From Ectothiorhodospiraceae bacterium (lineage in GTDB: Bacteria; Pseudomonadota; Gammaproteobacteria; XJ16; Halofilaceae): a stretch of DNA of 64,000 nucleotides. Below are positions 50,081 to 56,221 of this stretch, in pieces. Below the pieces are notes generated by a model. The model searched no databases, was not told where the DNA came from, and was given only the letters and a program-made list of their open reading frames with translations. The number at the start of each line of letters is the position of its first letter. Position 1 is the stretch's first letter. The stretch covers positions 62,001 through 126,000 of the forward strand of contig SLKC01000071.1 of assembly GCA_007134775.1 (NCBI GenBank), given 5' to 3'. The translations under genes were made by a program, and so were the position numbers.

Positions 50081-50157
50081 TCGCCTCCCTGCTCAACCGC
50101 CGGTGGAGAGGGCGCGGATGGTGAGCGCGAGACAGGAAGACAACAGGCCGTGCCGTG

Positions 50158-50174
50158 TGCTTCAATTGCGCGCC
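50158..50174 (+). promoter_or_regulatory. Extended -10 box and GC-rich discriminator abutting the lolC start
   Basis: TGC followed by TTCAAT (50161-50166), then TGCGCGCC, then the lolC ATG at 50175. The eight-base spacer differs by one base from those before aroC and gltX. An AAGACA at 50137-50142 could serve as a -35 element with an 18-base spacer. Confidence 0.45.
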
Positions 50175-51417
50175 ATGTTTCGTCCACTGCCACTGTGTAT
50201 CGGGCTGCGCTATACCTCCGCGCGGCGCCGCAATCACTTCATCTCCTTCATCTCGCTGATCTCGATGCTCGGGATCTTCATCGGGGTGACGGCGCTGATC
50301 ACAGTGCTGTCCGTGATGAACGGCTTCGAGCGCGAGCTGCGCGAGCGCATTCTCGGGGTCGCCGCGCATGCCACGCTGGAAGGTTTTAGCGAGCCCTTGA
50401 GAGATTGGGAGCACCTCGCCCAACAGGCGGCGGATCACCCCGAGGTGCTCGGTGCGGCGCCCTACACCGAGGGCCAGGCCATGCTGACGCGCCGCAACCA
50501 GGTCACCGGTGCAATGCTTCGTGGCATATCGCCCGAGCATGAGCCTTCGGTGTCGGATATCCATGAGCACATGATCGAGGGCGCGTACGACAGCCTCGAG
50601 GCGGGCGAATTCGGCATTGTTCTCGGATCGGCACTCGCGCGCTATCTCAACGTCCGGGTAGGGGAGCGCGTCACGCTGATCATGCCCGAGGCGAACGTGA
50701 CCCCGGCGGGTGTGATGCCGCGCCTGCGACGCTTCACGGTCACGGGCATCTTCGAGGTCGGTATGCACGACTTCGACCGCGCCACGGCCTTCATCCATAT
50801 TGCGGACGGACAGCGCCTGATGCGCAAGTCGGAGGGCGAGGTCTCGGGGGTCCGGCTCCGGCTCGACGATCTCTTCCGCGCGCGCATCGTCGCCGAGCAG
50901 CTCTCGGCGACGATCGACGAGCGCGTCTGGGTCAGCGACTGGACGCGCCAGCACCAGAACCTATTCCGGGCCGTACAGACGGAAAAGACGGTGATGTTCG
51001 TCATCCTGGCGCTGATCATTGCGGTCGCGGCCTTCAATATCGTATCGACGCTGGTGATGATGGTCACGGACAAGCAGTCCGACATCGCCATCCTGCGCAC
51101 GCTGGGCCTGTCGCCGCGCGGCGTCATGGGGATTTTCCTCGTCCAGGGCACCTTTATCGGCGTCATCGGCACGCTGCTCGGCATTGTTGGGGGGATCGCA
51201 CTCTCGCTCAATGTGGACGCGATCATGAGTGGGCTGGAATCGGTTCTGGGCTTCGAGATGCTGCCTGCCGATATCTACTACCTCACCGATCTGCCCTCGG
51301 AGCTGCAGGTCAGCGATATCACCCGGATCGGGCTGCTGGCGTTTGGCCTCAGTGTCGTAGCCACGCTCTACCCGGCGTGGCGGGCATCGCGCGTCCAGCC
51401 GGCGGAGGCGTTGCGTT

Positions 51418-51425
<8 letters not shown>
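50175..51425 (+). CDS. lolC: Lipoprotein-releasing permease LolC/LolE type (possible LolF)
   Basis: An inner-membrane FtsX-family permease of 416 residues that, with LolD, extracts lipoproteins and hands them to LolA. It has the family N-terminus [20 protein letters not shown], a first membrane helix (about 22-45), a periplasmic domain with [18 protein letters not shown], and three C-terminal helices around [24 protein letters not shown] 50175 aligns with the E. coli LolC start; ATG 50118 has a better Shine-Dalgarno sequence but no homology. Only one permease gene is present here, so it may be a LolF-type homodimer. Confidence 0.9.
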
Positions 51426-52116
<691 letters not shown>

Positions 52117-52138
52117 CTGGTTCGCTCGATTGATGGGC

Positions 52139-52702
52139 TCAGCCACCCCGATCGCGGTGGCGGTTGATGCGGCGTTTGCGCTGGCGGCGGCGCTCCGCGA
52201 TCCAGGAGACGATGTGCAGGCGCCAGACAATGCGGGTGAGCGCGTAGCCGGCGGTGGCGCTGATCACGGCGAGCAGGGTGCAGCCGAGCAGTAGCGGCTG
52301 CCAGATGGCGAGCATTTCGTCGAAGAACCAGGCCGTCTCGGGCTTGAAATCGAGGTCCTCGACCGCTCTCGGCTCGCGGTCGAGCAGCCAGATACCGAGG
52401 CGATACGCCGACCAGTACATCGGCCCCCAGGTTAACGGGTTCGACACCCAGACTAGGACGACGGCGGTCGGGAGGTTCATGCGCAGCAGGATCGCGATCA
52501 GCGCCGCGGGCATCATCTGGAAGGGGATCGGCATCCAAGCCAAGAACAGGCCGATGGCCATGCCGCCCGAGATCGATCGGCGGTTGAGGTGCCAGAGGTT
52601 CGGATCGGCGAGGCGTCGTCCGATCACGCGGCGCAGCGATCCGCCCTGATCGAGCTCCCCGGTGTCACGCGGTAGGTAGCGGCGGAAGAAACGCTTCGGC
52701 AT
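52139..52702 (-). CDS. DUF2062 family membrane protein
   Basis: A 187-residue integral membrane protein of the DUF2062 family. Features are an N-terminal basic part (MPKRFFRRYLPRD), hydrophobic helices around residues 44-66, 72-92 (SNPLTWGPMYW) and 130-155, and a strongly basic C-terminal tail (RRRQRKRRINRHRDRGG). In Pseudomonas a homologue lies in the same lol-comEC neighbourhood. Function unknown. It is convergent with lolD and divergent from comEC. Confidence 0.85.
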   Translation of the reverse strand: MPKRFFRRYLPRDTGELDQGGSLRRVIGRRLADPNLWHLNRRSISGGMAIGLFLAWMPIPFQMMPAALIAILLRMNLPTAVVLVWVSNPLTWGPMYWSAYRLGIWLLDREPRAVEDLDFKPETAWFFDEMLAIWQPLLLGCTLLAVISATAGYALTRIVWRLHIVSWIAERRRQRKRRINRHRDRGG

Positions 52703-52776: not shown

Positions 52777-55110
52777 GTGCGATTGTTGCATTCACTGGCG
52801 CTGTTGGCCGGCGCCACGACACTCCAGTTCTGGCATGCACTGCCGCCGCCTGGCGTGACGGCGGCGGGCATACTGGTCGGCATAGCGGGCTATTGCTGGC
52901 GCCCCGTGCGCTTGCCCGCGTTGTGCCTGTTGGGTGCGGCGATCGCGCTCACCGTCGCGACGATCCGGCTGGAGGCACCGCTCGCGCCTGAGGTCACAGG
53001 CGAGGCGGTAGAGCTGCGAGGGACGGTGGTGGGTCTGCCCGTGGCGGATGACCGCCAGGTCCGCTTTCGCTTGCGTGTCGAGGAAGCGCGCGTTGACGGC
53101 CGCCCGGTCGAGGTGCCACGGACGGTACGCCTTGGCTGGTTTGGTGCAGCCGGTGACGCAATCCGCCCCGGTGAGCGCTGGCAGTTGATGGCTCGCCTCT
53201 CCCAACCTCGCGGGTGGGCGAATCCGGGCGGTTTCGATTTTCCGCGCTGGCTGTTCCGCGAGGGCATTGGTGCCACTGGTCAAGTCCTCGGGGAGCAAGG
53301 CGCTGTTCGGCTCGATCCGGCCGGGCCGGGGCTCGATCCGCTGCGCTACCGGCTGCGCCACGGGCTGGTCGAGTCGGTGGATCTCGCCCACGAAGGCACA
53401 CTGAGTGCGCTCGCCATCGGCGATCGCGGACTCATTGATGACGCCACCTGGGAAGTGCTCCTGGCCACGGGGACGAACCACCTCTTGGCCATTTCTGGGC
53501 TGCATGTCGGGTTGGCCGCGCTGGCCGGTTTTGGCCTCGGCCGCGCCGGCTGGTACCTCCTCCCGAGCAGGGCACGTCAGCGGTGGCCGCGTCCGATCGT
53601 CGCGGCCATAACGGGCCTCGTGCTGGCGGCGGTGTACGCGGCCCTTGCCGGTTTCGCCATCCCGACCCAGCGCGCTCTGATCATGCTCGCGGTGGTGCTG
53701 GGGATGACCATCCTGCGCCGCGCGTCCTCCCCCGGCGAAGTCCTCGCGCTCGCGTTGGCGGGCGTGCTCGTGATCGACCCGCTGGCCCCAATGGCACCCG
53801 GATTCTGGCTCTCCTTCGCCGCCGTGGCGATCATTCTCTGGACCGTCTCCGGACGCATTGGCCCCTCGGGCCGTCTGCGTGAGTTGGTTCGGTTGCAGAT
53901 TGCCCTCGGCCTGGCGCTGTCGCCACTGCTGCTACTGCTGTTCGCGCGCACATCGATCGCCGGGCCGCTCGCCAACCTGGTCGCGGTGCCCTGGGTGAGC
54001 CTGTTGGTCGTGCCCCCGACGGTGAGCGGGGCCCTGATCTCACCTTGGCTCCCCGGTCTCGGCAGCGCGCTGCTACAGCTCGCCGATCTGGCCTTCACCC
54101 CCCTGTGGTGGCTGCTCAAGCACCTCGCGGAACAACCCTGGGCGCAGTGGCGAGCTGCGGTGCCGGGGGCTGTCGCACTGGGCTTGGCCATTATCGGCTG
54201 CGCGCTGCTACTCGCACCCCGCGGCGTGCCCGGCAAAGCGGCCGGACTCGTTTGCCTGTTGCCGCTGGTCGCCGCAACGCCATCGCGTCCGGCCCCCGGG
54301 CATGTCTGGCTCGACTTGCTCGACGTAGGCGAGGGCGTTGCCGCGGTGGTACGCACGACCGAGTACACCCTGGTCGTGGATACCGGGCCGCGCCGTCCCT
54401 CGGGGTTCGATGCCGGTGCCGCCGCGGTCACGCCCTTTCTGCGGGCCGCTGGCAGTCCGCGTGTCGACGACCTGGTCATCACGCAAGGGCACCGTCATCA
54501 CAGCGGGGGTGCCGAGAGCGTGATCGAGTCGGTGGAGCCGAACCGGGTCCTGGCGCCCGGCCCGGATGTTGGCGATGCCGCGTCGGCGGATGCCTGTCGC
54601 GAGGGGATGCGCTGGCGGCGTGACGGTGTCGAGTTCACGGTCCTGCACCCGCGGGCCGGCGACCGGGAGCGACTCGACGGCGCGGACCACGCCTGCGTGC
54701 TCCGCATTGCTGCGCCGGGTGGGGATATCCTGCTTGTCTCCGGTCTGGGCGAGCGCGCGCAGTGGTTCATGCTCACGCGGGATCTTGCGCTGACCGCGGA
54801 TGTCCTCGTGACCCAGGCTGCGGCTGCGACCGTCGAGGATTTTGCCCATGCAGTTTCGCCCGAGTGGGTCCTCCATGCAGGGGACAGTGGCGGTCCGCAC
54901 ACGGCGTGGCCGCCGCCGTGGGCGGCCGGCCCCGCAGGGCACGCCCGCAGCGATTGCCGCGGGGCCCTGCGCCTGCACATCGGGCCCGGCGAGGGCGTCG
55001 GCACCCCCGCGAGCTGGCACGAGCGTCGCCCCCGTTTCTGGCAGCGCGGGTGCGATTCCGGGGACAAATCCGGTACCATGCCTGCCGTCATGGCGCCCGA
55101 TTCCGACTGA
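52777..55110 (+). CDS. comEC: ComEC/Rec2-like DNA-uptake channel with a degenerate nuclease domain
   Basis: A 777-residue protein of the ComEC/Rec2 family that moves single-stranded DNA across the inner membrane in competence. An N-terminal DUF4131 OB-fold domain (about 60-180) follows two or three helices; the competence domain (about 190-480) has GTNHLLAISGLHVGLAAL and many helices. The C-terminal metallo-beta-lactamase-like domain (about 505-740) keeps LLDVGEG and VVDTGP. But the metal motif HxDxDH reads TQGHRHH (569-575), GD reads GL (LLVSGLGE) and the HHG motif reads TQAAAA. GTG 52777 is the start; no ATG option fits. First gene of the operon to nudF. Confidence 0.88.
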   Translation: MRLLHSLALLAGATTLQFWHALPPPGVTAAGILVGIAGYCWRPVRLPALCLLGAAIALTVATIRLEAPLAPEVTGEAVELRGTVVGLPVADDRQVRFRLRVEEARVDGRPVEVPRTVRLGWFGAAGDAIRPGERWQLMARLSQPRGWANPGGFDFPRWLFREGIGATGQVLGEQGAVRLDPAGPGLDPLRYRLRHGLVESVDLAHEGTLSALAIGDRGLIDDATWEVLLATGTNHLLAISGLHVGLAALAGFGLGRAGWYLLPSRARQRWPRPIVAAITGLVLAAVYAALAGFAIPTQRALIMLAVVLGMTILRRASSPGEVLALALAGVLVIDPLAPMAPGFWLSFAAVAIILWTVSGRIGPSGRLRELVRLQIALGLALSPLLLLLFARTSIAGPLANLVAVPWVSLLVVPPTVSGALISPWLPGLGSALLQLADLAFTPLWWLLKHLAEQPWAQWRAAVPGAVALGLAIIGCALLLAPRGVPGKAAGLVCLLPLVAATPSRPAPGHVWLDLLDVGEGVAAVVRTTEYTLVVDTGPRRPSGFDAGAAAVTPFLRAAGSPRVDDLVITQGHRHHSGGAESVIESVEPNRVLAPGPDVGDAASADACREGMRWRRDGVEFTVLHPRAGDRERLDGADHACVLRIAAPGGDILLVSGLGERAQWFMLTRDLALTADVLVTQAAAATVEDFAHAVSPEWVLHAGDSGGPHTAWPPPWAAGPAGHARSDCRGALRLHIGPGEGVGTPASWHERRPRFWQRGCDSGDKSGTMPAVMAPDSD

Positions 55111-55160: not shown

Positions 55161-55796
55161 GTGTTAGAACTCGTCCAAGCTGGTGGCTGGCTGATGGTGC
55201 CCATCCTGGCTAGCTCAGTCCTGGCGCTCGCCATCATCGTCGAGCGGGCGTGGATGCTGCGGCGCGCGCGCGTCGCACCCGGTGACCTCGTGGGTCGTAT
55301 CTGGAAGCAGGCGCGGGCGGGCTCGCTCAGTGAAGATCACATCCGCGCTCTGCGCAATCACTCCCCATTGGGTCGCATCCTCGCCGTGGGGCTGCTCAAT
55401 CGGGGGCGGGATCGACAGGTGATGAAGGAAGCGATCGAAGAGACGGGGCGGGCCGTCGCGCACGACCTCCATCGCTTCCTCAATGCCCTGGGGACGATCG
55501 CCGCGATCACGCCACTGCTCGGGCTGCTCGGCACGGTCGTCGGCATGATCAGCGTGTTCACCACGATCACGGCGCTGGGCGTGGGTGATCCCGCGGAACT
55601 CGCCGGCGGCATCTCGCAGGCGCTGATCACGACGGCGGCGGGCCTGTCGGTTGCGATCCCGAGCCTGATTTTCTATCGCTTTTTTCGCGGTAAGGTCGAT
55701 GAGCTGATCGTCGTCATGGAACAGGAAGCGGTGAAGCTCGTGGAGATCCTGCAGGGTGAGCGCCCGCACGTGCAGGCTGGAGGCGCGCCCGAGTGA
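55161..55796 (+). CDS. exbB: ExbB/TolQ family proton channel
   Basis: A 211-residue MotA/TolQ/ExbB-family membrane protein that forms the pentameric proton channel energising a TonB- or Tol-like system. Three membrane helices lie near residues 13-33, 109-132 and 150-172 (the TITALGVGDPAELAGGISQALITT segment lies between), with the conserved GLLGTVVGMI. The GTG start 55161 lies 50 bases after comEC; the frame is open upstream but without homology. It overlaps exbD by four bases. The pair lies in the same comEC-exbBD-msbA context in Pseudomonas. Confidence 0.92.
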   Translation: MLELVQAGGWLMVPILASSVLALAIIVERAWMLRRARVAPGDLVGRIWKQARAGSLSEDHIRALRNHSPLGRILAVGLLNRGRDRQVMKEAIEETGRAVAHDLHRFLNALGTIAAITPLLGLLGTVVGMISVFTTITALGVGDPAELAGGISQALITTAAGLSVAIPSLIFYRFFRGKVDELIVVMEQEAVKLVEILQGERPHVQAGGAPE

Positions 55797-56221
55797 ACTT
55801 CCAGACCGGTCAACGCGAGGAACTTGAGCTCAATATCACGCCGCTGATCGACATCGTTTTCCTCCTGCTCATCTTCTTCATGGTCTCGACGACGTTTCAG
55901 ACCGAGTCGCAGTTGCACGTCCAGCTACCTGAGGCGAGCGAGGAGCCCGCGATCGACCCGGGTGATCCGCTGGAAGTCGTTGTCAGTGCGGAGGGACAGT
56001 ACGCGGTGGGTGGACGTGAACTCGGTGACAATGCACTCGCGACACTGACCGAGGCGCTCATAAGCGCTGCGGGTAATGACCGCGAGCAGCCCCTGATCAT
56101 CCGCGCGGACGCGCGGGCCCCGCATCAAGCGGTCGTTCGTGCCATGGATGCCTCGTCGCGAGCGGGCCTGACCAACCTCTCCATCGCAACCGCACAACGC
56201 GATGAAGCGGCGGCGGAATGA
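55793..56221 (+). CDS. exbD: ExbD/TolR family protein
   Basis: A 142-residue single-span membrane protein pairing with ExbB. The N-terminal helix (about residues 17-37, ITPLIDIVFLLLIFFMVSTT) contains the essential Asp that carries protons. A periplasmic TolR/ExbD domain follows, with EQPLIIRADARAPHQAVV. GTG 55793 overlaps the exbB stop and the gene ends on the ATGA shared with msbA. No tonB gene is nearby, so its function here is not TonB-specific by context. Confidence 0.92.
   Translation: MNFQTGQREELELNITPLIDIVFLLLIFFMVSTTFQTESQLHVQLPEASEEPAIDPGDPLEVVVSAEGQYAVGGRELGDNALATLTEALISAAGNDREQPLIIRADARAPHQAVVRAMDASSRAGLTNLSIATAQRDEAAAE

Follow-up and report, generated by a model that had tools for sequence, protein, structure and literature searches.

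Results

The comEC gene and its locus

The window, the whole stretch of 64,000 nucleotides that was analysed, carries comEC on the forward strand at 52777-55110. The gene begins with a GTG start and encodes, in one open frame, a protein of 777 amino acids composed of an OB fold, a channel and a metallo-beta-lactamase (MBL)-like C-terminal domain (CTD). The OB-fold domain (DUF4131, PF13567, E 6e-28; residues 23-171, 52843-53289) and the Competence or channel domain (PF03772, E 3e-60; residues 212-480, 53410-54216), which includes GTNHLLAISGLHVGL, both look normal. The CTD lies at 54298-55047, and there the fold appears to be kept while the active site is lost; PF00753 (Lactamase_B) matched the C-terminus with E 0.005, under its curated cut-off. 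The window genome contains a single PF03772 gene, comEC itself, which rules out a second copy. The domains (PF03772 plus DUF4131), the orthologous position and the single copy together identify the protein as the ComEC/Rec2 DNA-uptake channel.

Upstream of comEC, lolC/E and lolD on the forward strand and a DUF2062 gene on the reverse strand occupy 50103-52702, and exbB and exbD follow on the forward strand at 55161-56221. The complete order, mfd, a small gene, lolC/E, lolD, DUF2062, comEC, exbB, exbD, msbA, lpxK and kdsB, is identical in both genus mates compared (G001 and G002), indicating that comEC was inherited rather than replaced. Compared with the genus mates, comEC is 42-50% identical, most neighbours are 56-73% identical and the small gene is about 50% identical. 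The exbB gene (55161-55796) is only about 45% identical to their copy, and its partner exbD is 71% identical.

Within the 3' end of comEC, the 16 bases AAATCCGGTACCATGC (55066-55081) are shared without a change by the window and its two genus mates, and their flanks are less conserved. The element looks like an extended -10 promoter, putatively serving exbB-exbD, and such a promoter would explain the conserved extra C-terminal ComEC residues KSGTM.

Loss of the metal site in the CTD

To compare the active site, 94 ComEC sequences were aligned. Motif II is kept and the active-site motifs are intact in more than 80 of them, and the motif IV Asp is kept in 89. In the window protein, motif II (residues 569-575, 54481-54501) reads TQGHRHH in place of S-H-x-D-x-D-H, with the changes H570Q, D572H and D574H, while H575 is kept. 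Motif III (54673-54702) reads LDGADHACVL instead of GND-SCVL (N636A, S639A), and motif IV (54739-54747) reads SGL instead of GDI, turning the bridging Asp into Gly (D656G). In motif V (54814-54831), QAAAAT replaces PHHGSxTSS; the HHG is lost by an in-frame deletion of three codons, and the Ser has become Ala (S681A). At the positions where a nuclease CTD has H-x-D-x-D-H, the motif IV Asp and the motif V His, the window thus has Q-G-H-R-H-H, Gly and a deletion.

The sequence-only reading had reported TQGHRHH at 54481-54501, with LLVSGLGE and TQAAAA further on, in a full-length protein. It was accurate in these respects: TQGHRHH has those coordinates, SGLGE begins at 54739 and TQAAAA at 54811, and all lie in a single open 777-residue frame. 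The reading had taken the GD ligand as GL; the loss of the ligand holds, but the register does not, as the ungapped alignment pairs GD with SG. It had described the frame and length of the domain as kept, and this is true of the frame only, since besides the three codons lost at PHHGS there are small changes in the next loop. The claim that all ligands are lost applies to nearly all of them, the last His of motif II being retained, and it is weakened further by D572H, because His at this position is also present in three otherwise intact ComECs (L004, L034 and L070). In most metallo-beta-lactamases, His at the second motif II position is the ordinary ligand.

Compared with the Moorella nuclease, in which H598, D600, D602, H603, D700, H725 and S728 correspond to window Q570, H572, H574, H575, G656, the deleted residue and A681, six of the seven metal or catalytic positions examined by mutation (PMC12455585) are changed, and H575 is the sole one kept. 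Single Ala changes at nearly all of these positions abolish or strongly reduce the activity of the Moorella domain (PMC12455585). The loop HAGDSGGPHTAWPP (54868-54918) replaces GYRNRF/WxFP at the position of the proposed strand-separating pin loop, a position set by distance from the motif V Ser and not by aligning the Legionella sequence; elsewhere this loop reads GYRNRFGFP or GYRNRWDFP.

Among CTD columns conserved at 90% or more, 9 of the 10 active-site columns are changed in the window, against 12 of the 37 others. The Fisher test gave p = 0.0015, a value that is indicative only because the ten columns were hand-chosen from the motifs. As judged from the alignment, metal-ligand loss in this CTD exceeds chance. 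Alignment of the CTD with relatives, the check that had been proposed for the sequence-only reading, bore it out: SHLDNDH, GDI and PHHGS are all intact at the same locus in both genus mates. A search of named genomes for close relatives matched distant betaproteobacterial ComECs only, with the site intact in all of them, and a plasmid search with the CTD gave no match.

Predicted fold and constraint on the channel

An AlphaFold model of the full protein matched 9ic4, a crystal structure of the nuclease domain from Moorella ComEC, with Z 27.2 and an rmsd of 2.5 over 240 residues, and RNase J2 was among the closest folds (Z 18.6). A model of the CTD alone reached pLDDT 78 and pTM 0.83. The input was seven sequences only, which is a basis for the fold and not for the side-chain geometry of the site. 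The MBL fold of the window CTD is thus predicted to be retained. Residues kept in the domain include LDVGxG, D535, G537, P553, D564, G577-G578, C607, W613 and C640-V641-L642.

We compared how well conserved columns are retained in each part of the protein. In the OB fold, the window retains each of the 13 columns with conservation of 80% or more. Of the columns that intact ComECs conserve at 90% or more, 28 of 29 are unchanged in its channel and 26 of 47 in its CTD, where the changes fall mainly on active-site or loop residues. Retention in the window CTD is the lowest of the sequences compared, the next lowest being 0.83, in a comparison that left out four fully degraded CTDs. Branch lengths, with the OB and channel sequences setting the topology, showed that since the split from its sister the window CTD has evolved 2.8 times as fast (1.21 vs 0.43), whereas the channel has evolved at 0.79 times the sister rate (0.48 vs 0.60). 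By the ratio of CTD to channel branch, the window ranks fourth of 92 tips, and the three tips ranked above it are other ligand-poor ComECs. These alignment-based comparisons indicate that the loss in comEC is confined to the CTD and that the channel is under normal constraint. The picture first drawn from the bare sequence, in which the nuclease active site is lost and the channel looks normal, is upheld by alignment, relative rates, predicted fold and conserved synteny.

Recurrence in Gammaproteobacteria

We searched 369 genomes of the class with a profile built from 31 intact CTDs and obtained matches in 319, and thirty low-scoring genomes were then read; several cases had already come from the 94-sequence survey. 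Ligands were scored at six positions, namely the four of motif II, the motif IV Asp and the first His of motif V. At least four of the six are altered in at least nine genomes (the window genome, G018, G167, G028, G173, G067, G094, G224 and G347), a lower bound, as only part of the high-scoring genomes was read. These nine span seven families, the eight besides the window genome belonging to six other families, and three more genomes (G070, G303 and G192) have partly altered ligands. In G192 (L162), from yet another family, the CTD reads SHDDARH, with AD for GD and AHG for HHG, a partly degraded site. The changed ligands in the related losses are unrelated residues with no common new set.

By parsimony on the channel-domain tree, built with FastTree and weakly supported at several nodes, the nine ligand-poor genomes plus G192 need seven changes. 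The tree suggests that ligand loss arose independently about seven times; among the gammaproteobacterial ComECs sampled, such a number points to a pattern in evolution rather than to a single aberrant gene. The partly altered G070 (L061) and G303 (L150) group with the fully altered G028 (L096) and G173 (L167) with support of 0.97, and this clade looks like a graded series of ligand loss that would help to establish the sequence of the losses.

G028 and G173 represent two genera of a single family (f27), and both have a full-length ligand-poor ComEC, so the dead-CTD state can last. Their CTDs are 34% identical and their channels 64%, which points to weak constraint on the dead CTD. DprA is present in the ligand-poor G018, G028 and G067. 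Some other ligand-poor lineages look like decay, because a frame break separates the two halves of comEC in G167 (L160), which is either a pseudogene or an assembly error, and because DprA gave no match in G094, where a contig end truncates the CTD.

Other competence genes and nucleases

ComEA, DprA, ComM and PilQ all have open frames in the window genome. ComEA was found by a PF12836 match in a frame of 171 codons, and the matched part is 71% identical to that of G002. Identity to the genus mates is 64% for DprA, 67-70% for ComM and 58% for PilQ.

We also searched the three genus genomes for nucleases that might replace the CTD. Neither the EndA-type nuclease (PF01223), which the same search matched in 4 control genomes, nor endonuclease I (PF04231) gave a match in any of the three, and both were rejected as the replacement. 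The window genome has 9 Lactamase_B matches, compared with 7 and 6 in the genus mates, each mate's count including its own ComEC. Those of the window genome lie on contigs C153, C43, C80, C156 and C64, and some are short. Some of these free-standing Lactamase_B proteins could be candidate trans-acting nucleases.

Discussion

The present analysis observed ligand loss, a predicted fold that is kept, acceleration of the CTD only, a conserved channel, and the presence of ComEA, DprA, ComM and PilQ. The explanation we favour, at somewhat better than even confidence, is that a catalytically dead CTD persists, still folded, as a guide on a channel that remains under constraint. In the window lineage the CTD nuclease would have turned catalytically dead after the split from the genus mates. 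The most likely reason for the survival of the folded CTD is that it lies against the OB fold and helps to form the route by which DNA reaches the channel, where it would act as a non-cutting guide. Single-strand import probably continues, because the channel is constrained and the uptake machinery examined is present, and the non-transported strand may be removed by another nuclease or simply be displaced. What we infer from the observations above is that the CTD lacks nuclease activity and serves as a guide, that the cell still transforms, and what becomes of the other strand. The window ComEC would then be, as the sequence-only reading had proposed, a channel that leaves the non-transported strand undegraded, and other nucleases could degrade it.

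Work in other species bears on this explanation from both sides. According to the current model, the DNA path starts at an entrance built by the OB fold and the CTD; cleavage of the 5'-leading strand by the CTD is proposed to power melting as the opposite strand passes into the channel (PMC12455585). A CTD lacking metal would not be expected to cut. With a metal-site-dead ComEC in B. subtilis, transformation persists at a 10- to 100-fold lower level (PMC8579336), and the inactive CTD of S. pneumoniae was proposed by Silale and others to guide DNA (PMC8579336); the constrained channel and the folded but probably inert CTD of the window are consistent with this. In L. pneumophila, however, the pin loop is essential (F689 and F691), and metal-ligand mutants abolish transformation (PMC12455585). 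The window has lost both, which fits loss of function over reuse, and neither of the two nuclease types searched for as a replacement, EndA-type PF01223 and endonuclease I PF04231, was found. We do not rate the guide role higher mainly because the pin loop is lost and a replacement nuclease was not found.

The main competitor is early decay, in which transformation is no longer selected, the CTD site has been lost first and the channel will follow, and the com genes persist by inertia or through other roles such as twitching, the use of DNA as food, or housekeeping by DprA or ComM. Such decay would account for the joint loss of catalytic site and pin loop, the fast evolution of the CTD, the decayed look of related states (the broken frame of G167 and the missing DprA match in G094), and the graded series from G070 and G303, partly altered, to G028 and G173, fully altered, within one clade. 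We nevertheless consider it rather unlikely, as the channel is not accelerated and keeps nearly all of its conserved columns, the comEC frame is open with its sole deletion in frame, ComEA, DprA, ComM and PilQ are intact, and two genera still have full-length ligand-poor ComECs.

A rebuilt metal site is far less probable. Here H572, H574 and H575, perhaps with nearby residues, would coordinate another metal and still support some phosphodiesterase activity. Three His are left in motif II, and D572H restores the usual metallo-beta-lactamase residue, which otherwise intact ComECs also have; but the bridging Asp, the motif III Asn and the motif V HHG are all gone and the first His is Gln. The proposed general base, D602 of Moorella (PMC12455585), is His in the window, and the related losses do not converge on a new set of ligands. 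That the loss is an artefact of sequencing, assembly or alignment, or that a foreign comEC took the place of the native gene, is hardly credible: although the assembly consists of 201 contigs and the genome is represented once, the many scattered, independent substitutions and the in-frame deletion in one open frame strongly disfavour a reading error, and both the synteny from mfd to kdsB common to two genus mates and the channel tree, which makes the window their sister (support 0.93), argue for inheritance.

Scaffolds of MBL-fold nucleases are known to be retained after losing their catalytic residues, as in RNase J2, CPSF100 and INTS9. The window CTD is likewise a catalytically poor scaffold that was retained; unlike it, those proteins partner an active paralogue, whereas the window genome has a single ComEC. 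Canonical ComEC/Rec2 of B. subtilis, Moorella and L. pneumophila, with its Mn-dependent nuclease CTD, shares the domain order of OB fold, channel and MBL-like CTD, and the window CTD model matches its Moorella structure as described, but in the window the metal site is changed and the pin loop lost. The ComEC of H. pylori and other CTD-less ComECs also do without a working CTD nuclease (PMC12455585), although the window CTD is present and predicted to fold.

The window case is therefore not unique, as there are at least eight further gammaproteobacterial genomes with similar loss, and S. pneumoniae ComEC is a clear published precedent for an inactive CTD (PMC5031224, PMC8579336). That protein has a full-length MBL-like CTD with most metal ligands substituted, keeping only 2 of 7 ligand positions (PMC5031224), and EndA degrades the strand. 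The window differs from it in its Gram-negative host, in whose genome an EndA-family gene (PF01223) was not found, in the deleted HHG and lost pin loop, and in a loss that postdates the split from genus mates. The case is notable for its extent, its recurrence and its Gram-negative setting. In the literature searched, which did not extend to subscription papers, we found no description of near-complete ligand loss in Gram-negative ComECs, of recurrence in multiple families, or of a case whose genus mates have an intact site at that locus.

These results have consequences for how ComEC is studied and annotated. Annotation by domain presence alone would label all ligand-poor CTDs as nucleases. 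Because near-complete ligand loss with an apparently normal channel recurred separately in several families, the window lineage and its intact genus mates offer a natural test of whether CTD cutting is needed for DNA uptake. The fate of the non-transported strand when the CTD does not cut, a question raised in PMC8579336, becomes directly testable, because a Gram-negative bacterium without the site keeps the channel, ComEA, DprA, ComM and PilQ and has intact genus mates. As a tentative generalization, to which we give clearly less than even confidence, nuclease-dead ComEC may be a recurrent and stable Gram-negative alternative in which the CTD guides DNA without cutting it and single strands are imported through displacement or with the help of a trans-acting nuclease. 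If this were true, ComEC transport would not oblige ComEC to degrade the other strand.
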